A stretch of 64,000 nt of DNA from positions 2,356,001 to 2,420,000 of the forward strand of contig NW_025408671.1 of NCBI RefSeq assembly GCF_020360975.1, written 5' to 3'. The notes beneath the pieces are model-generated. The model worked only from the letters and a program-made list of their open reading frames with translations. It had not been told where the DNA came from and did no database searches. Shown here piece by piece: positions 31,624 through 63,556 of the stretch. How positions within the stretch are numbered: the stretch's first letter is position 1; every line of letters begins with the position of its first letter. The stretch is from Hirsutella rhossiliensis. Lineage: Eukaryota > Ascomycota > Sordariomycetes > Hypocreales > Ophiocordycipitaceae. The position numbers and the translations under genes were made by a program.

Positions 31624-34600
31624 TTAGCCGGAAAATTGCATTTGCTCCTTCGCCGCGCTTGACAGGGCCAGCAATTCGGCCTCTGTGGACGACGTCGTCA
31701 CAGTCGCTTGTTTCGTAGCCTTCCAGTCAACGGGTCCGCCTAGAAACAAGAAGACATATCCCTGTGAGGATTTTCGAGTCTCCGGGTTGTCTGCAAAGGA
31801 TGAATCAGAAGCGCAGAGGAACCTGCGTTCAGCTTCTTTGACTGAGAAGCAGATGCAGCGATCTCTCGTGTGATAGAGGTATGCCAGGCATCTCCTGGCC
31901 TCTCCTATGCTTCGGGCCCGGGTTATGGCTGAATTGTGCCAGTTTTCCAACCGGGAACGCACCGTCGGGTCTGGTGTGAATCGCTGGGTGAAGAATTGAG
32001 CCAATTAGAGAGAGATATTGATGAACCTCGTCCCTAGTAGCCGTCTTCTCGTATGGCTTGAGCTCTTCGGTCGTTATCGGGATCTGGGGCACGCCAAGGA
32101 TCTGATCATCGTCCTCAATGTGGAATTTCTTGGCCATCTTCGAGAGATACGAGGCTTGAGCGAGCCAAAGCTTCTTCTGGGCCCTATCCTGATGACTTCA
32201 ATCCCTAGGAACCAGCGAAGTTCCCCATGTGGTTGATGGTATATTCCTTCATAATGGCAGCGTGAAGTTCTTCCCATTCGGCCTTCTTTTCTTTTGGATA
32301 CATCATCACGATGTCATCCACAAAGAAGAAGATGATGACTCCTTTATAAGTCATCACGCAGGCATCTTCGACGAGTTGTTGAGCGCCCAGCTTCTTGAAG
32401 AAGCCCGAGAGCTCCTCAAACCACAGCCTTGGAGCGATTCGAAGCCCGTATAGTCCCTTGAGAAGCTTCAAGCATAGCCCAGGCTCAAGGTAGCCTGGTG
32501 GCATCTGACAATAGATGGCATGCTTGAGCTTATTATACAGAAACGCTGTTTTCACATCGTACTGTTCTGTTTCAAGGTCTTCAAGACAGCAGAGGGCCAT
32601 TAACACTCTGAAGGTTCTTGCTCGTAGTGTGGCCGCGTATGTGTCCTCGTTGTCTTCCGGCTGCTGGTCTCCACGGACCACAAGTCGGGCTTTAAAGCGA
32701 GTGACGTAGCCCTGCTCATCCAGTTTATATGCATATACCCATCGCAACGGGATTATGAAGTGGCCGGCTTCTTCAACCATCTTTCTGGCCACCTTGGTCC
32801 ACGTTTCGAGCTTCATCTGGTCCTCAATTTCACGCCCCATCCCCATTATCCATTGGGAGGCGTATTCCGAAGCCATCGCGGCTTTAAAGGAGGTTGGCAC
32901 AGGAGGCATATCCTCAACGTGAAGCCTGTGCTTCGAGGCATTAGCAATGATGTTATTGATGAAGGCCTTCTTCGGCTTCCTCTGTCTCTTGCCCTCAAGC
33001 ACATTGGCGGGGTTTATCCCCTGAGACTTGTCCTCGCCTTGCGGGGTCGTTTTCGGGTTGTGATTGTGACTCTGGGGTCGGGCTCTCCCCAACCCCCAGA
33101 GACAGCTCCTCGAATTCTGACCATTGTGGCTCGTCGAGCGCACCACCCCCCGGATCGACAGGTGGCTCATTCAATCCGTCTAGGATCGGCGTGCCTAGTG
33201 ATACCTGAGGCTCCCGGTCGGTCCGCGTAGGGCTCGAGATAATGTTTGAGTTTTCCACCTCCGGGTCCTCACTCCGTAGTGGGTGACCTCCTGCGGGGTC
33301 ACGCTAGTGGTGACAGAGCTTGGTGGGGAGGGTGAGGTTTCTTCCTCCACCCTACTGTTTGAAGTGCTTGGAGGCGAAATATAGGCACTGTCCGTTGTAG
33401 TCCTCATCGAAGTCTTCAAATTCGGTGCTTCTTGTGTCGCCTCGTCTGCAGAGGGTGCCGCAATTGACTCCGAGGTGTACGGCGTCATTCCGTCATCTGT
33501 CTCATCATCGGAGTAATTGCGCACTCCTGCTTCCTCTATGTCTTCGTCGTCAGGGACGTCTATCGCCACCATTTGACGAAGAACATCGTATGTATAGACC
33601 TGGAAGGCTTCCGCGTCTTCTTCCCTCTTCGGATCGTACATTGTTGACTCATCAAATTGTACATTCGCCGAGACCATCAGTTTGGTCTGGCGGATCGAGG
33701 GTATCCACACGACATATTGATGGGTCGATCTGTAGCCCACCAGGTAACCGATATGAGCTCTCTGCTCAAGCGGGGACTGCGTCTTATGTGACTTTACATG
33801 CTCCAACGCAGTGATTGTCATTGGGTAGGCCACACAGCCGAAGACACGCAGGTGATTTATGCTCGGCTGGACTCGCTTGCTGTGGCCGTATAGAGGGTTG
33901 TGGTCCCTCATATAGGTCCACCATCGTTCGTGTGGGCTTCTCCAGCTATGATCAGATCCTTTAAGTGGCGTACGGTTGAGCAAATACACTGCTGTTCGGT
34001 AGGTCTCGGTCCAGAGCTCCTCCGGGAGGCGGGAGTCCAGGTTCATAAGCCGGGCCCTTTCTTTGACCACGGCCCCGGACCTTTCTGCATGCCCATTCTG
34101 TGTGGGCGTGGATGGAGCTGACTGGAAGACCCGAATGCCCAATCCTTCGATGAATTTGACTAGCTCCTTTGTTAAAAGGGCTTTTCTCCGTCAGTAGCCA
34201 GGTTGATCAGTTTTATCCCGTACTGGGTTTCTAGCATTGATGTCAGCTTCTTGAAGGCATCTCGACCTCGGTTTTGCTCTTCAATGCGTAATAAAACCTC
34301 ATCCTGGTCGTTATGCATGTGAATAGCGCAAAGTACTTTTCACCCCGAATCCGGCCACCGGGCCTGGGTGTAAGTCGAAGCTAAATTGAGCTCCGGCCCT
34401 CTGGGTCGTAAAGTGGGCTCTCACGGGAGACCTGCCTCTTTGCCTTGCCTGTTGCGCAGACCTCGCATTCACACGTGGCCGGTCCCCCCATCTTGGTTAG
34501 GTGGCTAAGGGGTTCTGGCCCCGGATGTCCTAGCCGTCTGTGCCAAAGGTCTGCTTGCCCACCCATTGGTGGCTTAGGAGCCCTGCTTGTGACAAAGACG

Positions 34601-44934: not shown

Positions 44935-45400
44935 AGATTGCGATCGTTTTGTAAAGTGTGAAAAGTGGTTCCGGCAATGCGACTCTTATGGAATGCATCT
45001 ACACCTCTTTTAGCGATCGCTCTGAAGATCTTGTGGCATTGTTCCCGCTTTAATGTATCTCTCACTTGCACTAGACATTTTAATTTGCCTGGTCAAGAAT
45101 AACAAAACTATCAGACCACTCTTCTCCCCGAGGAACCGATTGATTGCTGGTAACTGATTAGTTGTCATTACGTTCTTCATGTGGCCATCTGAAGATTTAC
45201 AACAGACACGACGTTATAGAGGCCAATGTCTTCAATTTTGGGGGCTTCAATTCTGAAATTTTCAGAACTACGGCCATTCAAGGACAGGAACCCGCTGACG
45301 ATCGGCCGAGCTTAAACTCCAGTGGAGAACTCCATACAACGATCGAAAGCTTCAACCACCCACCATGTACCCATCGTAGCGAGCCAAGACCACCCGATCG
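44935..45400. other. 3' flank of the knottin gene
   Basis: This is 466 bp between the LINE insertion and the stop codon of the knottin gene. It is probably 3' UTR and downstream sequence. No other feature is seen. Confidence 0.4.
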
Positions 45401-47951
45401 TCACTGAAATTGCCGGTTATATAATCATATCGGCAGCAATCAGATTTCTCGTAAACCACGGGCAGATACTTACAGGCTAGAGAATGCTATATCAGCACAG
45501 TGCCTGAGATCAGATCCTTCATTTATTATGAATAAATACTCACTTTCTGGCGTTTTCCAGCTGCGTTAGGGTATTGCTAATAGTTAGGGCTCTTATCGGT
45601 TATAGACGAATACTTACCCGCTGGAGTTTACCAGTCAACTTGGTGTCCTCGTTAATTAGAGGCGGATACGTACACACTAATATTACCAGCTATATTAGCA
45701 TGTCTTTGGAAACCAGATTGCATATTATCGATACTGTTGGAAAACCGCCATGGCGTGCAGCCAAAAGTGAAGTGCACACTCCAGCAAGTATACTGCACGT
45801 GGATCCTATAACTCATGGAGTTGCTGGTGGCAGCTGGCAAATACTTACTGTCTAGAATTTTATATTAGCATGTTGATTATATTTGGATTTACCATCAGTG
45901 ATAGATACTTACTTTCTAGAATTCGCCGGCCATTAGTATGATGCCATCAATTAGATTCCTTAGGTACTTACGGACTAGAATTTCCCAGTTAAATTAGCAT
46001 CTTACTATAATTGAACTCTTTGTTAATTAAATACTTACACCCTAAGATTTGCTTGCCATATTAGCATCTCGCTAAATATTAGATTTCTTGTTAATTATAG
46101 GCAGCTACTTACAACCTAGAATTTGCCGATTATATTAGTATATTGCTAGCAATTCGATAACCCGTTCATAAGCTAGAGATACTTACTCCCTAGGGTTTGC
46201 CAGCTATTAGCATATTGCTTGAAATCATATATCTCGTTAGCAGGTAAATACTTACTTTCTAAAGTTTACCAGTTATATTAGCATACTAGGAGGAATGAAT
46301 TCTTTAATATTGGCAGACACCTACGCACTAATCGCACCAGTTATATTAGCATATTGCGGTTAATTAACTCGCTTCTTAATTATAAGTAGGTACTTACAAT
46401 CTGGAGTTTGCCAGCTGTATTAGATTACTGCTAATAATTAACCCTCTTATCAACTATAAGCGAACACTTACAAGCTAGAATTTCCCAGTCAAATTAGCAT
46501 ATTATGTTACTAGCAACCAGACTAATTTTTTATTAGACAGATACCTACTCCCTAAGATTCGCTAGTATATTAGCATATTGCCTGTAGTTAAAATCCTGAT
46601 AAATTACTAGAAGTACTTACTTTCTAAATTTTAATAGCTATATTAGCACTCTACTAGCAGTTTACTTCCTTGCTATAGAATATACTTACACACTAACATA
46701 AACAGCTATATTAATATATCGCCAGCTAATAGATTCCGTAACGGTCACGGATAAATACTTACACACTAATATTGCCAGATATATCAGCATGTCGGGCTTT
46801 TCATAAACCGCAAATAGATACTTACAGGCTATAGTTTTAGCAATATTAGCATGCCGCTAGCAACCCAACTTTTCGTTGAATATAAGTAGACACTTACGGG
46901 CTAGAGTTTGCAAGCTATATTAGCATTACGCTCGAAGTTAGATTTATTGCAGGCGGACACTTACAATCTAACATTCGCCAGCTATATTAGCCTATAGGCA
47001 CCGATTACGTTTGTTAATAGTAGTAAGCACTTACACGCTAGAGTTGGTTAGATCAATTAACTTACTTATCAAAAGGCGGATGGATACTCACAAACTAGAT
47101 TTTGCCAGGTATATAAGCGTGCTGCAAATAACTGGCTTTCTCTTCGACTTTAAGCTATACTTACACCCTAAATTTTGCCGGCTATTTTAGTATATCGCCA
47201 ACAACCGGATTATTTCTTAATCGCGGGAAGATGCCTACACACTAGCGTCACAAGCAATGTCAGCATAACGTTAGCAGTTAAGATTCTTATTATAAGCAGA
47301 TGCTTACTTTCTAGAGTTTGCAAGCTATATTAGCATGCTACCAGTGATTGAGTTCCTCGTTAATTATAGGCAGATTCTTACTTGCTAGAATTTGCCGGCT
47401 GCATTAATGGTCCGCTAGCAATCAACTTCTTCGGGAGCCATGGAATACTTACAAACTAGAATTTGTCACGTCAGTATTATGCCAGTGATCAAATTCGTCG
47501 TCAATCACCAGTAGGTACTTACAATCTAAGGTTTACCAGCTATGTCAGTATACATACAGCCAGCGATCAGATCCCTTCTCGATGGGCAGATACGTACGGG
47601 CTAAAGTTTTCCAATTATATCAGCATGCTGCGAGGGATTTGATACCTGACCAATTCCGGGTAGACACTTACAGTCTGTATTTGCCAGTTGTATCAGGACA
47701 CTGCTAGCAAACGGACCGGTCATTGATTTCAGAATTTCGCTTACACACTGTAATGTGAATTGGATCAGCGCTGGAGAAACATTCACTGTTGTACCAAAAG
47801 TTATGATCTTACGGCCTATGCCAAGAGGCAGCGTCAGTACTGCTCGCAGCACTTCCGTTGGCTTCTCTCTTACTTGTCTTCTTTCGTTTATCGCGGGGTT
47901 CGCCATTCCCAGTCCAACCAGGACAGCAACAAGGGCAATTGAAAGTTGCAT
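45401..47951 (-). CDS. Secreted cystine-knot (knottin) precursor encoded by 33 single-codon exons
   Basis: Predicted product: a 59-residue secreted precursor. Exon 1 (47951-47874, 26 codons, start ATG at 47951) encodes a signal peptide beginning MQLSIALVAVLVG, a short propeptide NPAINERR ending in a Kex2-type dibasic site, and Gln. The next 33 exons are three bases each, all phase 0. The stop codon TGA (45403-45401) directly follows the last acceptor. The mature peptide (34 residues if Kex2 cleaves) has six Cys in the pattern C-x6-C-x6-C-C-x4-C-x7-C, the inhibitor cystine-knot framework, with seven basic and no acidic residues. Cys exons start at 47747, 47241, 46765, 46692, 46327 and 45676. 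Knottins in other organisms serve as antimicrobials, inhibitors or toxins; the role here is unknown. An ATG-less open frame at 47984-47601 reads through the first three introns and is not the product. The signal, cleavage site, framework and stop agree independently; transcription is not shown. Confidence 0.88.
45404..47873 (-). repeat. Tandem array of 34 homologous introns separating one-codon exons
   Basis: Three-base exons, high coordinate first: 47815-13, 47747-45, 47674-72, 47600-598, 47525-23, 47455-53, 47384-82, 47310-08, 47241-39, 47167-65, 47094-92, 47037-35, 46967-65, 46900-898, 46828-26, 46765-63, 46692-90, 46623-21, 46551-49, 46474-72, 46400-398, 46327-25, 46258-56, 46189-87, 46115-13, 46041-39, 45974-72, 45915-13, 45851-49, 45676-74, 45620-18, 45546-44, 45476-74; stop 45403-01. 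Introns are 53-74 nt except one of 172 nt (45677-45848). Donors: 22 GTAAGT, 3 GTAAGA, 2 GTAAGC, 2 GTAGGT, 1 GTAGGC, 2 GTACGT, 2 GTGAGT. Acceptors are TAG (28) or CAG (6). Most introns share GTAAGTATCTGCC near the start and a GCTAATATAGCTGGCAAA block before TTCTAG; the branch site usually fits CTRAY. The first two introns are less like the rest. Confidence 0.88.
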
Positions 47952-50900
47952 ATTGACAAGAGGTATACGATTAATAATGAACACCAGGTAGGTTTGTGCT
48001 CAACCTCGGGGAGGACTTTTGGGGAGGGGTGCTCAGCCGCTTTAGTACTCCTCGGTTTCAAGACTTGATCCGTCCTGAAGTGAGGAATAACTGAGGAGGG
48101 CTCGGGCTGCTGTCATGTTATGTCAAGTGGTGGAAGCCGTTACATGATTCTTACTCAACTGACCTGTCAAATTGGCATGACAAGCCATACCAGCCGTTCT
48201 TGCAGCAGCAACTATCGGAGCATGCATAGGTCATTGCAACATGGCCATGACAGTTTGCAGCATATTTAAGACGCCATAATCTTGCTTTATTATGTAACTG
48301 ACGAGCACAGTCAATACATGTACAGTACCCTCACCTAAGATCGCGTCACACTGCCACAAACGCACCTTCACACACACTATAGGAGCTACCTGCTGTACAC
48401 ATGTTGGAGTGATCATTTTTTTCAGCATGCTAGAATGGTTTTTCAACAGGTTGTTGGGGCAAGACGGGGCTAGGTACCTTGTGTAGGAAATTGACGGCAC
48501 CAGGATCATACGGTTACGGAACACGGGATGGAAACGCGGGCCCCGATCTGCTCTGCATATATTGGCAGCCCCAGGTCATGCTTTCACCGCTCGGGGATCT
48601 CAAGGTGACCACTTCCCATGTATGTGGATGAATGGCGGGAGGGCAGCTGATTGATTCTCTTCTTCGGCCGTGCCTACTGCAAGCACCTCAAACGGGACGT
48701 GAACTTGAGCGCCTTTCTGTCAACATTTAGCTGAATAGTGAATGGCCCTATCCCGCCGCCTCATGCATGCCCCTCCCGTGTGACACGTGGCATGCTGCTC
48801 AATGGTCTAGACTGCATGTTGCTGGCGCTACATGTAGGAAAGGGAATCCTTGAGCTGAGGCTCGCCTACATGTGAGCTGAATGGTGTTGTAACGAGGTGC
48901 GGCTGAGGTGAACTTCCATTTTGCGGAGTCGTAGGTTATAGGCACAGCCAGGGCGAGCCCGTAACGGTTATCCGGTCGAGCCCGGCACTGTGTATCAAGT
49001 AGAGTGGTTTTAATTTCTAGCAGTGAGTACAGTATATAGCGAGTTCACCTAACAGGGAAAGGCGTATTAAATGTAGCTTGTATCTAGTACATCAACAGGT
49101 ATAGCTTTTCTATTTCATATGATCTTTAACAGCTTAAGTCAGGGTAGGTTAGTTTTTAAGCGGTTCGGTTAGGATCAGGGGTGAATACCTTACTGGAAAT
49201 ATCCGAAAAAAGTAAAGATTCAAGTTGTACAAGACTCTCTGTCCTATGCACCACAGCCTCCCCACTCTTCGTGTGCCAGTAAGGCAGGCTCGTGTGCCGG
49301 ATAGTCTGCCCCTAAGGTTCTGCAAGTAAAGCCAGGATACCCCGGTGATATTTCTGGGCAGACCAATGGAAAATGCCCGATCAAGAAGTATGTAACAATA
49401 CATTATATAGCATCTAGTATAGAGGTTGGCACTGTCTGAAGGCTGCATGGCTTGCCCGATCTGTCCAGATGCAGCTGCACCTTGTGACAAGTAGCAAATA
49501 TCCAGTACAGTGAGTGCTGGAGCTCTACGCGAGCCATTTTTGCCACAGCCCATGAGCTTCCTAAACTGCTGGGCAGGCGGACACAGTTACCGGGTGAAGG
49601 CTATGGCGCGACGAAGCTGGGTTGTCTCGGGCCGCTCCGAACAGGCCAAGCTAACTATGTATGTACATGGGCGCTTTGGCAAACCGGGTATTGATTGGGC
49701 TACCGCGGGGAGCATGGGGTGGGAACGGGAACGGGTCTAGGGGCTAGAATTGGTGGCCATTACGACGGGTAAGAAATTCACAACACAGCAGCTAAGCGTA
49801 CTGCTGAGTGCCGTCCTTTTTTTGGCCCTGCCTGCTTAGACGAGCCGCGCTCACTGTGCGGCGCTAACGCAAATCGCCTCGAATAATGGAAGAGTGGTCG
49901 GAACGTGATGTAGGTCAAGAGCGTTGGTAGGGTTTCTTATCGGCAGAGCAGCCGTCTCTTGCTCGTTAGACGCCCGTGGGTTAGGCAATATGGAGGCACT
50001 GCATGTCTCGAAGGCCATGCATTTCATCAAGACCGCGGCAAGCTGATCGCCGGTGCTACGCGAAATGAGGGGGTAGAGGGAAACGGCACACTTTTGTGCC
50101 CATTTGTGTTTTAATCTAGTTTACTGAAAATGTAGATCATTTCCCCCCATGTTATTCATTATAGGCCGAGACTCCTTCAAGTTTCCATAAATGACTGCCT
50201 AAAAAGACCTTCTCCAGCTGTTAAAGTGATCGGGAAATAGCACTGGTATATCGGAGCTAGAGATGGCCGCAGCGGTATAGCCAGCAACCACAATTGCTTA
50301 GGGACTGTGAAACAGGATAATGTATAAATTACAGTAGCATTTGTAAAGCTTTGGGCCCCGTTCCTGTGGAATTGTTGTAGATCAACGTCTACACGTAGCT
50401 GGAAGTTGCGTGCAAATCAGCCGAGTAACGGGATCCGGCAGATCACCGATAAATCCCTTAAGCGTGTACTCATTGTTGCCGTGTAATATTTCTTAGTTCG
50501 AGAAGCATACCGGTGCTATAACTCAGGGATGGCCTCTAGTATCGACAACGACCGAGTACGCATAAACGGGCCATCCTACTGCGACTTAAGGGTAGGGATC
50601 TGAGGTTTTCTTTCTAACGAGGACTAAAAGCGGACAGCGCACGGCACGGCACGGCACGGCGCAGCATGGCACGGCACGGCACGGCATGTTGAAATTTTTA
50701 CCACACGTAGAACCATCCCTTCCGAGTCTTTGTAGGTGACTTCTTGTTCCCCGCATCACCCAACAACCTACGTTGACTTCGTGACTGAGACTGCCCAGCT
50801 TTAAAGCCCTGACGAGCAACGCAAAGCGACCCTTTTGACCAAGGGACACGAGAATTCTGTGGACACGGAGTGGACGTAAATACATCGCCGGCTTGAAACT

Positions 50901-54147: not shown

Positions 54148-56646
54148 TTATTTCGCTCCGTCGTCCGTGGCAAACCGATCCGTAAACTTGAACACGGCCA
54201 GTCCTTCCCGGAAGCCCTCGACAATGGCGTCGACTTTGCTGGCGGCGTATACGCCCTCTCCGTCCCCGACGCCGGCCACCTTGCCCACCTTTTGCGCGGT
54301 GCCCAGGAAGCCAACCGGCTTGCCCCAGTTGTACCCGTCGGTGATGATCTGGGTCGGCCGCCTGGGTGGGTACAGCGTCGACGTGCTGTTGCTGCCAAAA
54401 AGCTTCTCGGCGCCGCTGGTCACAATGATTCCGTCAAAGCCCGTCGCGCTCGCCGCCGAGTATGTCATGTCCACGCCCTCTGCGAGCGTCTCGGCGACGG
54501 TGACAACCGTGACCTTGTCCGCCTCAAAGGCAGCCTTGAGAGCTTTGGCCTGCGAGAGCGAGTCGTTCGCGCCGATCGAGGCGAGTACCCCGACCTTCAA
54601 GGTGGCAATTGTGGGCAGCTTCTCACCCAGGATGCTGATGCCCTTGGTCTTGTTGTTGTGGTAAAATGTCGGGTCCGCGGCGGGGGCCTCCATGCCCAGG
54701 GCTACCCCGACGCGGACGGCAACGTCATGGCTAATCTTGTTGAGCTGCGCGAGCACATTTTTTTGCACCGGAGCCGCGACCTGGCTCGTCTCGAAGCGGA
54801 TGGCATCGATGAGGAACTGCTGCTCGACCTTGGTCAATGAGTTGTAGAACAACCGCGGTTGACTCCAGTGATCCGCAAACGTCGCGCTCCTCTCGCGCAC
54901 TAGGAACCCAGAGGCCTTGCGGCCTGGCGCGGTGAAGAACCCCTTGCCCTCTTTCTGGTCTGCCTGCGCGGGGGAGCCTTTATTCAGAGTGTTGGGTGAG
55001 TCTGGCTCAGCCATGGTGTATTAGCATCGACACGTGCATCAAACGGTCCTTGCTGGGCGTCCATTTTGACTCACAGGCAGCGGTATTCTTGTGGATGAAG
55101 TTTTGAGCGGCGCCGTCTCGGTTGTTGTTGTGGACAGGAACCACGGGACGGTTGATGGGCAGCTGCTCAAAGTTGGGGCCGCCGTGGCGGTTAATCTGGG
55201 TATCAAGGTACGAGAAGATGCGACCCTGCAGCAAGGGGTCTTCAGTGAAGTCGATGCCTCGTACAATGTGGCCCGGTTGGAACTACGGCCGCATGAGTTA
55301 GCATGGCCGACGCGCACTTTCCGTCCACTTTGGACGATTCAGGTTCGCACCGACTCACCATGATCTGCTCCGTCTCGGCAAAATAGTTGACCGGGTTCAC
55401 GTCAAGCTTCATCACGCCGACCTTGCGCAGGGGCGCGAGCTCCTCCGGAATAATCTTGGTCGGGTCGAGAACGTCGAAGCCGAAATCAAGGGCCTGCTTC
55501 TCGTCGATGATTTGCACGTTGAGCTCCCACTCGGGAAAGTTGCCGGAATTGATAGCGTCCCATAGATCTTGACGATGGAAGTCGGCGTTTTTGCCAGCAA
55601 TGTTCTGCGCCTCGTCCCAAACCAGGCTGGCCTTGCCCTGCATCGTCTTCCAGTGCCACTTGATGAGCTTGGATTCGCCCTCGTCGTTGACAAAACGAAA
55701 GGTATGAACACCGAAGCCGTCCTAGTGGAGAAGTCTGTCAGTTGCCATTATCCACCGCTCCGTGGGTGCGTGCGCCCAGGTTGAGATCGACATACCATGT
55801 GCCTGAAACTCCTGGGAATCCCGTATCCCGCCATGGCCCAGAAGAGGGTGTGCAGTGTCGACGTCTGCTGGCTGAAAAAGTCCCAGGCCGAGTCGTGGGC
55901 CGTCGCGGCCTGGGGGATTTCATTGTCGGGCTTGGGCTTGACAGCGTGGATAAGGTCGGGAAACTGAATGGCATCCTGGATGAAGAAGACGGGGATATTG
56001 TTACCGACAATGTCAAAATTGCCCTCGTCGGTATAGCTACGCTGGTCAGCAAGAGAAAACCCGTCGCGACAGGGATACGCACAATCTGGTGGCGAAGCCG
56101 TGGACGTCGCGAACGGTGTCGGCGCTTCCCCGGGATCCGGCTACGGTCGAGAATCGGACAAAAGTCGGCGTCTTTTTCCCCTTTGCGCTCAGGAAGGAGG
56201 CGGCCGTGATGTTCCTGAAATCGCCGTAGCTGGTAAAGGTGCCATAGGCACCGGCTCCGCGGGCGTGAACAGCTCGTTCGGGGACCTGAAGGACGTGACA
56301 TGTCAGAGGAGGGGATTCAGGAGCGAAGAGAAGCTTTGGCGAGCGAGGCAAGGCTTACACGCTCATGGTCGAAGCGGGTGATTTTCTGGCGGAAGATGAA
56401 GTCCTCGAGGAGAGTGGAGCCGCGCTCGCCAGCCTTGAGGCTCTGCTGGTCCTCTATGGGACCGCCGACGTCGCTGGTGAGGTAGACCTTGCCATCGTCG
56501 ACATCGAACTGGGCTACGTGCTCGCGAGAGCTGCTGGCGTCGGCCCTGGCGGCCAGAGTGTGGGACTGTGGATCGGTCCAAGGGCACGAGGCACGAGCGA
56601 CGGCGGCGAGGGCCACCGAAGCGGCGGCGAAGGTGGCGCGAACCAT
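54148..56646 (-). CDS. Secreted large-subunit catalase, six exons
   Basis: It decomposes hydrogen peroxide using heme. Exons (minus): 56646-56359, 56285-56083, 56036-55796, 55721-55359, 55282-55075, 55001-54148; all junctions are GT-AG and in phase, giving 718 residues, the usual size of large-subunit fungal catalases. An N-terminal hydrophobic segment ([19 protein letters not shown]) predicts secretion. Heme-pocket His103 lies in [10 protein letters not shown], Arg140 in VRFSTVAG and Asn176 in VGNN; the heme-ligand Tyr390 is in RIFSYLDTQ. The last exon carries the C-terminal flavodoxin-like domain typical of this class ([12 protein letters not shown], then [11 protein letters not shown]). 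Two residues are unusual: His158 in VRDVHGFA, where Arg is normal, and Tyr110 where GAGAHG is common. The nearest neighbours are unrelated. The start was chosen because it opens the signal peptide; an in-frame ATG at 56778 would add 44 residues without one. Confidence 0.93.
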
Positions 56647-59066: not shown

Positions 59067-61019
59067 TCATCCCAGCAAAACCTCAACCTCGTCCAACGCC
59101 TCGGCCTCCCATGCCTTTTGCAGGACGTGCCCAATGCCCCGCCGGTACGCGATGCCGGCAATCTTCTCGATCCACAGCACGTTGACAATGTCGATGATCT
59201 CGTCCTCGTCCATGTTTTCCTCAAACTTGTCCGCGCTGAACACGTACGACCCTCGGCGCTCCATGGCTGTCGAAATGGCCACAAACTCGAGTCTCTCGTC
59301 CCCGTCGTAGTTGGACGACTGCACCCCCAGCCACGCATCGTGTGCTCTAAACTCGCCGATCCATCGGTTACCTCTGCTCCAGATATTGCCCACCGCAACG
59401 GGCGGGTTGGGCTTGTCGCGGGGAGCCATGGATATCGCATAGTTGACCTCGAAGAAGCCGCATGTAGTCTTGAATGACAGCAGCGTCCCCGGGTGAGGAT
59501 CCGCACCCGGCTGGGCTTCGTAGTCGCCCGCTTCCGGGGGATCTTCGACCGGAATGGGGTATCGAAAGACGGTCAGCTCATCGCTATCGTGTCGGAACTG
59601 AGAGCCATTGCGCGACCAACCGGGCGGCAGCGTGGCGCTGTGGTTCCTGCGCGACCTCAGCTTCCGATATTGCAGTCCATTGTTGGCCACGTGAACCCCA
59701 TGGGTCCTGTTTGTGAGAGTCCACGCCACCGTGGGTCGAATTCGAAAAGAGTGGGAGGCCTGGAACCGCTTGGATCCCCGCCCCCGTTTCGCAGCGAGCG
59801 TCTCTTCGACATAGTCGGCCGCCGCCCTCCACAGACTGAGGTCGACCGAGACGCCATCAAACCACCAGCCCATCCACGACCACGACGGGATAAAGGGCGG
59901 GCGCGACGGGGCTCTCCATCGAATCGTAGCCTGCGGTCGCCAGAGTAGGGCAATGTCGAGAAACAAGAGTGGCATGCCGTAGACGAAGCCGCCGGCGAAG
60001 ACGCGGGAGAGAACGTGTGTGATGCCCGCAAAGGCCGGGAGTGTGTCGTCGACGAGCGTGAGCCGCCGACAGCTGTAGTCCATGCAAATGCGCGCGTACT
60101 CGTCCAGATCGGGCCACGGCGAATGCTGGAAGCCAAAGGCGGCAGGAGAGATGCGATTGGCGCATTCGTGCCGCCTCCTGCGCGTCGCCTGAGTGGCGCC
60201 CGTCGTGTTGCCCTGCCAGAGATCGCAGTGGCACTCCCAGGTGACAGCATCCTCGAAGAGGAAGACAGCGCGGCGCGAGTACAGGAGTTCCTGGAGCGTC
60301 CAGCCCCGCGTGTTCCATCTCGCGGCGAGGAGAAGATCGTTGTGGTCCTTGGCGCCCTCCCGAGCGCTACGTGACGGCCGTCGCGGGTCCAGGGAGAGCA
60401 GGCCGGTGTTGGCGTCTCCGTGCGCCGCGACAATGGTGAGATGGGCATTGGCGAAGACAAAGGCCATATGCTGGACGTGGTCGGCCCTGTCCTGCTCGTC
60501 GTCCTGGACAATGCACAGCCTATCCACCCAGAGGTAGCGGAGTCTTAGCTTCTTGGCAAGCCAGATGGCATCGAGAATGGTCCGGGGGATGTCCGTGTCG
60601 GGCAGGGACAGTTGGAAAGCATCGAGGTTGGTGCTGAGCAGCTGGGCAGCCGTCTCGGGCCCGTTGCGCGGCGGCGCGACACCCCAGACGTAGCTCAGGG
60701 CAGCATACCTGTCTCTCGGCTTCGCAGGGACCAGGCGGCGCTCGAACGTGTCAACAAGGCGGAGCGGGCGCCAGGTAAGGTTGTCGTCGTCGAGGTCGGC
60801 GCAGCAGTGGAACCCATGCTCGGCCTTGCACGACTCGAGCCACTGCATGATGCGCGGAATGGGCGACTGGCCCGTCGACGACGAGGATGCGCGACGCTGG
60901 GGCGAGGCAGCCGTGTCCTTGCGAGCCTGGCCAAAGGTTCCGAGGATGCGGTCGGTGATGCTGTGCCGCTTACTCTGGGGCTGCGGATCGCGGTCTCGGG
61001 ACCAGGGCGACCCGGGCAT
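59067..61019 (-). CDS. Heterokaryon-incompatibility (HET) domain protein
   Basis: A single-exon frame of 650 residues. HET domains act as cytoplasmic signalling modules in allorecognition and cell death in filamentous ascomycetes. The three conserved blocks are present: YAALSYVWG (residues 105-113), LRYLWVDRLCIVQDD (160-174, with AHLTIVAAHGDANTG following at 192-206) and RGWTLQELLYSRR (238-250). The N-terminal 55 residues are Ser/Arg/Gln-rich and probably disordered. The C-terminal 400 residues have no domain I recognise; there is no NACHT, NB-ARC, WD40 or ankyrin partner, so it is a stand-alone HET gene. No signal peptide or membrane segment is seen. Start at 61019 (MPGSPWSRD) is the first Met of the frame. 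The partner or recognition specificity cannot be read from the sequence. Confidence 0.9.
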   Translation of the reverse strand: MPGSPWSRDRDPQPQSKRHSITDRILGTFGQARKDTAASPQRRASSSSTGQSPIPRIMQWLESCKAEHGFHCCADLDDDNLTWRPLRLVDTFERRLVPAKPRDRYAALSYVWGVAPPRNGPETAAQLLSTNLDAFQLSLPDTDIPRTILDAIWLAKKLRLRYLWVDRLCIVQDDEQDRADHVQHMAFVFANAHLTIVAAHGDANTGLLSLDPRRPSRSAREGAKDHNDLLLAARWNTRGWTLQELLYSRRAVFLFEDAVTWECHCDLWQGNTTGATQATRRRRHECANRISPAAFGFQHSPWPDLDEYARICMDYSCRRLTLVDDTLPAFAGITHVLSRVFAGGFVYGMPLLFLDIALLWRPQATIRWRAPSRPPFIPSWSWMGWWFDGVSVDLSLWRAAADYVEETLAAKRGRGSKRFQASHSFRIRPTVAWTLTNRTHGVHVANNGLQYRKLRSRRNHSATLPPGWSRNGSQFRHDSDELTVFRYPIPVEDPPEAGDYEAQPGADPHPGTLLSFKTTCGFFEVNYAISMAPRDKPNPPVAVGNIWSRGNRWIGEFRAHDAWLGVQSSNYDGDERLEFVAISTAMERRGSYVFSADKFEENMDEDEIIDIVNVLWIEKIAGIAYRRGIGHVLQKAWEAEALDEVEVLLG

Positions 61020-62102: not shown

Positions 62103-63556
62103 ATGGATCGCGCCAGGAGGGCCTTGGCACGCACGCCGCCCGCCAGCATCGCCGAATACGAACCCCTTACCGGCGCCGATGACGCCGAGTCCCCAGCGCT
62201 CGAGCGCTCCGCCGTCCTCGACCATGATGCCGACGCCGGCTTCTCGTGGTTTGAATACGCCATCTTTGCCTTTCTCGGCGTGGCCATGCTCTGGGCCTGG
62301 TACGCGCACCCCCCCCCCCATCTTCCTCTCTGCCCCTTCATCCGCTGACGGCGTCTTTACTCGCCCCCAGGAACATGTTCCTCGCCGCGGCGCCCTACTT
62401 CGCCTCTCGCTTCGCCGCAGATCCGTGGATCTCGGCAAACTTCCAATCCGCCATCCTCACCGTCTCCACCCTCACCAACCTCGGCACCCTCGTCGTCCTC
62501 ACCTCCATGCAGCGCTCCGCCTCGTACCCCTTCCGCATCAACCTCGCTCTCGTCATCAACAGCCTCGTCTTCGCCCTCCTCACCTGCTCCACCGCCCTCT
62601 TCCTTGACGCCGCGCCGGGCCTCTACCTCGCCTTTCTGCTCGCCATGGTTGCCCTGACCTCGTGGGCCACGGGTCTGATACAGAACGGCGCCTTTGCCTT
62701 CGCCGCTAGCTTCGCACAGCCCGAGTACACGCAGGCCCTAATGGCGGGTCAGGGCGTTGCTGGCGTCCTGCCCGCCGTCGCCCAGGTCGCCACCGTCCTC
62801 CTCTTCCCGCCCCACGATGACCCCTCCTCCCGAGTCGACGGCCCCGCCGGCCAGGGCGAGACGTCGGCCTTTGTCTACTTCCTCACCGCCGTGGCCATCT
62901 CCGTCGCCGCCGTCGCCGCCCTCATACCCCTCGTTCGGAGGTACCACTGCATCGTGGAGAATCGCGTGCCCGAGGGCATGACGGCGTCCATGGCGAGCGT
63001 CCACGACGCCGAACGCGCCACCCGCAAGGTCAGCTCGCTGTGGTGCCTCTTTGCCAAGCTCCGTTGGCTCGCCCTCGGCGTTGCCCTCACCTTTACCGTC
63101 ACCATGTTCTTCCCCGTCTTCACCGCCAAGATTGTCTCGGTGCAGCAGGATGCCGGCTCTCTCTTCCGCCCCGCTGCCTTCATCCCGCTCGGTTTTCTCT
63201 TCTGGAACCTCGGCGATCTCGGCGGCAGGGTCGCCACTGCCTTGCCCTTCTCCCTCAGGCACAGGCCCGCCGTGCTCTTCCTGCTTTCCATTGTCCGCAT
63301 CGCCCAGCTCCCGCTTTACTTTCTTTGCAACATTGGCGGCCGCGGCGCCGCCGTCTCGAGCGACTTCTTCTACTTATTCGTTGTCCAACTGCTGTTCGGA
63401 CTATCCAATGGCTGGCTGGGCTCTAGCTTCATGATGGCCTCTGGCGAGTGGGTGGACCCGGGCGAGCGCGAGGCCACTGGTGGCTTCATGGGCCTATTCC
63501 TGGTTATAGGCCTCACTGTGGGTAGCCTGCTGAGCTTCACCGTGTCAGACATATAG
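62103..63556 (+). CDS. Equilibrative nucleoside transporter (SLC29/Fun26 family)
   Basis: Predicted nucleoside transporter of the ENT family, which in fungi often sits in the vacuolar membrane. Two exons, 62103-62299 and 62371-63556, are joined by a 71-nt GT-AG intron containing a run of eleven C; the join restores ...MLWAW then NMFLAAAPYF, the hallmark of ENT helix 1. The product is 460 residues, the family size, with about ten to eleven hydrophobic segments. The cytoplasmic N-terminus (SIAEYEPLTG) and a central loop around the sixth segment boundary (CIVENRVPEGMTASM onward) are hydrophilic. The C-terminal part has NGWLGSSFMM and EREATGGFMGLFLVIGLTVG, typical of the last helices. Start at 62103 was preferred for fit to family length; 62007 is an alternative in the same frame. 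Intact, with no odd residues noticed. Confidence 0.93.

Follow-up and report, generated by a model that had tools for sequence, protein, structure and literature searches.

Very short exons are a known feature of the micro-exon genes (MEGs) of Schistosoma, in which exons of 3-81 bp are separated by introns of up to 5 kbp (PMC10526429). The gene considered here lies on the minus strand, at positions 47951-45401, of a stretch of 64,000 nucleotides from the ascomycete Hirsutella rhossiliensis (assembly GCF_020360975.1, contig NW_025408671.1, positions 2,356,001 to 2,420,000; hereafter, the window). It very probably belongs to a gene family in which a signal exon is followed by a series of one-codon exons, 33 in this gene and as many as 74 at other loci of the genome, that are predicted to be joined by the spliceosome into a secreted peptide. 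Such arrays are akin to MEGs in that variable, secreted proteins of a parasite are assembled from very short exons; they differ in that the exons of MEGs are of mixed sizes and their introns long, whereas the internal exons of the arrays are of 3 nt and their introns, of about 70 nt, appear to be copies of one family.

Further points of comparison are provided by a few other reports. Aphid bicycle genes likewise encode fast-evolving putative effectors, whose recognition relies on the structure of the genes and not on their sequence (PMC9168663). Fungal introner-like elements likewise place near-identical spliceosomal introns at many sites of one genome (PMC4457414, PMC9860276), including unrelated genes (PMC4457414), whereas the copies in the arrays fill every codon boundary of one gene; in Zymoseptoria tritici, within-gene tandem duplication accounts for less than 1% of single intron gains, a figure quoted in PMC4457414. 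Closest in exon size is Fusarium CYP621A, another case from a filamentous fungus, whose 1-nt exon was inferred by way of an intronless relative, as is done below, and is supported by RNA reads (PMC12940212). This indicates that the splicing of a lone exon of such a size is within the capacity of a fungus, although what is described there is one tiny exon in a normal gene and not 33-74 in series.

In this sense, microexon and bicycle genes are known already, as are introner-like elements and isolated ultra-small exons. No description of a run of single-codon exons was found among the papers listed by the literature searches, most subscription journals being beyond reach; the author of an earlier note on this DNA had not seen one described. 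Bicycle genes are said to have larger exons than those of the arrays, and we know of no run of single codons in them. On the strength of the sequences, we rate the arrays as a new, extreme variant of microexon genes. If this is true, up to 75 introns in a row, with one codon between each, would mark a limit of gene fragmentation, and the arrays would make the order of splicing and the lower limit of exon size directly testable. The gene class is unlikely to be seen by present annotation, because no open frame remains where exons of 3 nt follow one another.

The array of the window and its family

The gene opens with an exon of 26 codons (MQLSIALVAVLVGLGMANPAINERRQ; 47874..47951, minus strand, as for all features of the gene given below) that comprises a signal peptide, judged by eye, and a putative dibasic processing site, RR. 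Intron 1 (47816..47873; 58 nt, GTAAGA..TAG) leads to 33 single-codon exons with 32 introns of 53-172 nt between them (45474..47815), followed by a last intron of 70 nt (45404..45473) and, directly 3' of the acceptor of this 34th intron, by the stop codon TGA (45401..45403). Given by their first base, the codons are 47815 GCC, 47747 TGT, 47674 ACT, 47600 CCC, 47525 ATT, 47455 TTT, 47384 CAA, 47310 AAA, 47241 TGT, 47167 GGT, 47094 TTT, 47037 CGT, 46967 ATT, 46900 CCC, 46828 CCT, 46765 TGT, 46692 TGT, 46623 AAA, 46551 GGA, 46474 CTT, 46400 ATT, 46327 TGC, 46258 AAA, 46189 GGA, 46115 GTT, 46041 GGT, 45974 TCC, 45915 AAA, 45851 ACA, 45676 TGT, 45620 CGG, 45546 AAA and 45476 CCT. The pattern YAG-NNN-GTRNGN occurs 33 times in the array, compared to a mean of 0.78 and a maximum of 5 in 300 dinucleotide shuffles. 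With every slot length from 0 to 12 nt admitted, the region yielded 33 slots of 3 nt, two of 12 nt and none of any other length, the expectation from 100 shuffles being about 0.6-0.9 for each length. The listing and the shuffles thus bear out the earlier note in its 33 slots of exactly 3 nt, and the first exon with its dibasic site and the TGA immediately after the last acceptor were recovered as it had placed them.

All 34 introns are of the form GT..YAG, a count that is partly by construction as the slots were chosen by these signals; CTRAY, a branch-point motif outside the search criteria, is found near the 3' end of 30 of them, and the looser YTRAY in 32. In these ends and this motif they agree with spliceosomal introns of the U2 type. 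Their lengths fall between 53 and 74 nt with one exception of 172 nt (45677..45848, between ACA and TGT), which exceeds its neighbours by about 100 nt and has GT..YAG ends and a branch-like CTAAT. Even in this array, the one with the lowest intron identity, that intron alone among the 34 has room for a unit that has lost its signals, as would be expected if splicing is selected. Tandem Repeats Finder reported nothing within the array.

A search of the other contigs with the branch-point pattern of the window array located at least five further loci of the same one-codon-slot build, with 18 to 74 slots. Together with the window array (C5), the six arrays that were counted (C5, C3, C6, C8, L016 and L019) hold 263 slots, each array having its own codons and look-alike introns. 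The C6 array (C6:3950.7-3956.4 kb) is the longest, with 74 slots and a TAA directly after the last acceptor. L019 (C13:2393-2397 kb) has 43 slots and L016 (C8:677.1-679.6 kb) 33, each followed by TAA, and a near copy of L019, L020, is seen in its 3' part on contig C10. The 62 slots of the C8 array (C8:1040.8-1052 kb) are split into three segments by two insertions and are followed by TAG. The C3 array (C3:2696.9-2698.1 kb) has 18 slots (CFDNCRCPCPNTCCGCCD), after which come a weak slot and a terminal exon several codons long. The stop follows the last acceptor directly in five of the six arrays (C5, C6, L016, L019 and C8) and not in C3, nor in L018, which with L017, L023, L030 and L035 makes up a set of partial or decayed arrays. 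Exon 1 of C3, C6, C8, L019 and the window gene is, by eye, a signal-peptide exon with similar leaders, and KR stands at its end, or one codon before it, in C6, C8 and L019. Most members have the leader and a 3' hairpin in common; their mature parts, often rich in cysteine, are hypervariable. A conserved leader and 3' end around a hypervariable middle recalls the genes of conotoxins.

The size of the exons was also left free, between 0 and 30 nt, in a dynamic-programming parser whose signal scores were trained on the 3-nt slots and in which length itself was unscored. In the 12 loci with at least two introns, of 17 parsed, 195 of 201 internal exons came out at 3 nt (C6, 71/71; L019, 41/41; C3, 16/16; L016, 31/32; L020, 14/14; C5, 10/10; L018, 5/6; L035, 4/4; L017, 1/1; L037, 2/4; L033, 0/1; L036, 0/1). 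At the L016 locus, BLAST placed 31 full-length copies of one intron at C8:677237-679503; of the 30 intervals between them, 29 measure exactly 3 nt and the remaining one 11 nt. A 15-base junction pattern with TGT in the slot, searched with up to one mismatch, occurs 60 times in the genome, versus 5 times for its reversed control, and 58 of the 60 fall in named family loci, suggesting that few arrays with this junction were missed; arrays with other signals could have been.

We note that the two long insertions that break the C8 array (C8:1036000-1055500; L011 and L012) both lie within introns and have terminal inverted repeats, beginning CAGGGTGGCGATC and CAATTGATATACGGGCC, and that the first of them appears, by eye, to carry an 8-bp duplication (CCGGTAAT).

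Reading the slots as codons

None of the 263 slots holds a stop codon, an outcome with a chance of 0.006 from the composition of the slots themselves and of 3e-6 with uniform bases. The slots are variable and their surroundings are not: across the 43 units of L019, the first and second bases of the slot carry 1.76 and 1.87 bits, whereas there is no variation in 21 of the 23 columns that precede the slot or in the nine columns that directly follow it (AG and GT by construction). L016 likewise has a variable triplet between near-invariant flanks.

The evidence that carries the codon reading furthest comes from relatives of the 74-slot C6 gene. Three intron-free paralogues, the tandem copies L024 and L025 and a third, L026, have the same leader and an uninterrupted frame. 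Once spliced in silico, C6 aligns with L026 over 73 codons, of which 35 are identical, as are 44 of the 73 encoded residues; with L024, 29 codons and 37 residues of 62 are identical. At the DNA level, C6 and L026 are 79% identical over 437 nt, starting about 325 nt upstream of the start codon. A fourth paralogue, L049, has the last three introns only (exons of 303, 33 and 3 nt, then TAA) and is 86% identical to C6 over 442 nt made up of about 335 nt of upstream sequence and exon 1, and 90% identical over 282 nt further upstream. On this comparison, the C6 slots are exons, because intron-free and nearly intron-free genes share with them the flank, the signal exon and the order of codons. The other arrays and the C6 paralogues likewise lend support to the joining of 33 three-base exons proposed in the earlier note; the removal of all 34 introns from one and the same transcript is a step that we infer.

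The third base of the codons provides a second line of evidence. In five arrays pooled (L016 excluded), 185 of 230 slots end in a pyrimidine, compared to 53 of 151 codons of exon 1 (p 3e-19). The same switch is seen without any intron in L024, where 65 of 66 codons after KR and 11 of 32 before it are pyrimidine-ending (p 2e-12), and in L026, with 77 of 85 and 10 of 32, respectively (p 5e-10). We take this switch as a trace of former single-codon exons. Within several genes, the array slots, as well as L024 and L026 after KR, draw on hardly more than one codon for each amino acid.

With the slots fixed and nothing left to choose, the 33 codons of the window array spell ACTPIFQKCGFRIPPCCKGLICKGVGSKTCRKP, the cysteine framework of which, C-x6-C-x6-CC-x4-C-x7-C, is as the earlier note had given it. 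This spacing and a PPCCKG..C core are common to the peptide and to inhibitor-cystine-knot peptides (PF07740), from which it differs in being fungal and in scoring under the Pfam cut-off. PF07740 (Toxin_12) matches it with E 0.0024 and 18.9 bits, under the curated cut-off of 21, and Protein Data Bank (PDB) chains with an inhibitor cystine knot match it weakly (best 2i1t_A, E 0.0059). The product is likely to be a secreted, knottin-like peptide. The name of knottin gene used in the earlier note finds some independent, if weak, support in Pfam and PDB and fits the window member alone, other members encoding different peptides.

History of the introns and competing readings

The introns resemble one another to degrees that depend on the array. 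Units recur every 73 nt or so, and mean intron identity ranges from 59% in the window array, the lowest value, to 94%, with 92% in L016. Searched against the genome, one C6-type intron gave 182 matches and one C8-type intron 119, those listed being arrays, remnants and paralogues; C3-type, L016-type and C5-type introns gave 12, 35 and 6, with a few copies in other genes, and 34 of the 35 L016-type matches lie within the L016 gene itself. Copies outside arrays were found at C19:662992 (the C6 paralogue L049), C6:3594526, C7:3762354, C7:3706706, C8:396314 and C2:3621214. In the genes L050 (C8:394800-398300) and L051 (C7:3760600-3764000), introns of the family stand near the 3' end between longer exons; from their motifs, these presumably encode secreted proteins of the enterotoxin-A type.

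In the C8 array, introns are alike where units carry the same codon, upstream (0/500 shuffles) and, more weakly, downstream (3 and 39/500), and three units with GGC are near-identical; units have thus been duplicated there, each adding a residue. The effect is restricted to the downstream side in L019 (13 and 6/500) and is at most weak in C3 (29/500 for downstream flanks with neighbours included, 104-109/500 otherwise). The proposition that every array grew by duplication of codon-intron cassettes was rejected, the introns of same-codon units in C6, L016 and C5 being no closer than under shuffled labels.

How intron-rich and intron-free genes are related to each other admits of two histories, and intron loss appears the simpler of the two, if not proven, because of the pyrimidine trace in L024 and L026, of the shortened donor of intron 1 (GTATCY) that C6 and L019 have in common, and of a tree of leader and upstream DNA in which the intron-free copies fall between array genes (supports 93, 93, 87 and 55). 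Intron-free members would then have arisen at least twice, by recombination with spliced cDNA. The opposite course, in which the family began without introns and several of its genes were invaded separately, at each codon boundary, by a burst of intron copies, strikes us as rather unlikely, albeit the most serious of the alternatives. It would account for the young appearance of the L016 introns, which are alike and nearly private to their gene, for the presence of family copies among the longer exons of L050 and L051, and for the lack of any tie between intron similarity and codon in C6, L016 and C5. It leaves the pyrimidine-third signature of slots in intron-free copies and the shared short donor to be explained, and the tree would demand two or more complete invasions. 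On either course, one gene family with 75, 3 and 0 introns constitutes a natural series for the study of intron loss and gain.

Three other readings deny that the window gene, or the arrays at large, are spliced as proposed. Decay of the window copy into a pseudogene that is no longer spliced or translated would be in keeping with its introns, the most diverged of the six arrays, and with its one intron of 172 nt; we consider it improbable in view of a gene that has no stop in its slots, an intact cysteine-knot spacing, its terminal stop and 3' hairpin in place, and 33 slots with at most one gap able to hide a lost unit. It is more improbable still, and would surprise us greatly, that the slots are not exons of the mRNA and that the array is one long intron, removed stepwise by recursive splicing or retained, whose codons are never joined. 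An acceptor and a donor 3 nt apart do resemble recursive-splicing points, and a one-codon unit can be skipped without a frameshift. Ratchet points, however, need no conserved codon, and neither recursive splicing nor retention predicts 263 slots free of stops, a stop immediately behind the final acceptor in five of six arrays, intron-free paralogues that spell a similar protein, or an intermediate, L049, that keeps three introns. As for a non-coding tandem repeat with a hypervariable triplet whose reading as codons is due to chance, the likeness of units within arrays and their 73-nt period are what it would produce, and we give it practically no credence as the triplet varies between near-invariant flanks in L019 and L016, third bases turn pyrimidine at the border of exon 1, and the order of codons common to intron-free genes already contradicts it for C6.

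The reading that we prefer, of a family gene whose one-codon exons are joined by splicing, has a number of observations weighing against it. Slots were picked by their YAG and GT, and counts of kept splice sites are to that extent built in. With exon length free, the parse of the window array covers 11 of its 34 introns (9 of 10 internal exons of 3 nt and one of 13 nt in one run, 10 of 10 in another), so that 'exactly 3 nt' rests there mainly on the slot pattern; in other arrays, the free parse takes in the greater part of the array. The parser also passes over weak slots in C3, C6 and C8, leaving introns of 136-149 nt. Exon-1 donors are weak in C6 and L019 (GTATCC/GTATCT) and in C3 (GCAAGT), L016 has one interval of 11 nt, in C3 the array closes with a weak slot (TTA, excluded from the counts) and a multi-codon exon, and L018 is partly decayed. 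Taken alone, the window array has a pyrimidine in 23 of 33 slots and 11 of 26 exon-1 codons, which is not significant (p 0.06). Neither the spliced window protein nor that of L019 has a relative in the protein collection searched (none sharing three 5-residue words), and the matches of the window peptide to knottins are below or near the cut-offs of Pfam and PDB. In the tree, finally, the node uniting L049 and L026 has a support of 55, and the outgroup, C8, is on a long branch.

A donor 3 nt behind an acceptor should create a steric conflict for the spliceosome. Under the preferred reading, the introns of about 70 nt, with their GTAAGT, CTRAY and TAG, would be recognised across the intron (intron definition), and the ordinary spliceosome would remove neighbouring introns one after another, each removal fusing one codon to a growing exon; a stepwise course is proposed because so short a distance leaves little room for binding both sites. 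The introns would be copies of one intron family, those of an array remaining alike through duplication of units or through gene conversion, and the mature peptides would act outside the cell, plausibly on the animal hosts of the fungus. A further idea, which we put forward as a doubtful speculation, is that one-codon exons serve as frame-neutral cassettes and the spliceosome as a residue-by-residue generator of peptides with which to attack or evade animal hosts. Duplicating, losing or skipping one unit would then change the peptide by exactly one amino acid; of these changes, unit duplication is visible in the C8 array.

The 3' flank and the surroundings of the gene

Downstream of the window gene, a hairpin at 45296..45345 (minus strand) is predicted to be an RNA structure of the 3' untranslated region. 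It is one of 27 matches in the genome, which comprise six array loci (L015, L016, L019, L020, L028 and L034), five partial or decayed arrays (L017, L018, L023, L030 and L035), nine frames with few or no introns and leader-like starts (L024, L025, L026, L027, L031, L032, L033, L039 and L040) and seven further places (L021, L022, L029, L036, L037, L038 and L041); the C3 array is absent from these 27. Covariation was assessed on 23 of the 27 rows, 22 of them distinct, with the near copies L020, L025 and L035 and the insertion-bearing L040 omitted, and with columns 19 and 48, a misplaced pair, counted as unpaired. Sixteen cells show two-sided changes, versus 5.6 in shuffles, and four of the six pairs of the outer helix have changes on both sides; further pair types, one of five covariation measures, were not above shuffles (262/500). 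Six of the 27 loci were searched against Rfam and gave no match at E up to 1.

The hairpin also bears on the annotation of one paralogue. When the protein collection was searched with L026 at E up to 1, the sole match was HRG_012392, a protein of H. rhossiliensis. It is identical to L025 over its first 90 residues, and its next 31 residues are translated from the 3' flank that contains the hairpin. This 3' end is an annotation error, apparently introduced through a false intron.

Other features of the window include an AT-rich block (1-30000, GC 0.21-0.39) that adjoins sequence of normal GC and looks like the product of repeat-induced point mutation, and frames of a copia-type retroelement at 32205-34142. 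The neighbouring genes encode the C-terminal part of a catalase (54148-55014), a HET domain protein (59067-61019) and a nucleoside transporter (62375-63556), and a tandem repeat of GCACG, in 9.6 copies, occupies 50639-50686.

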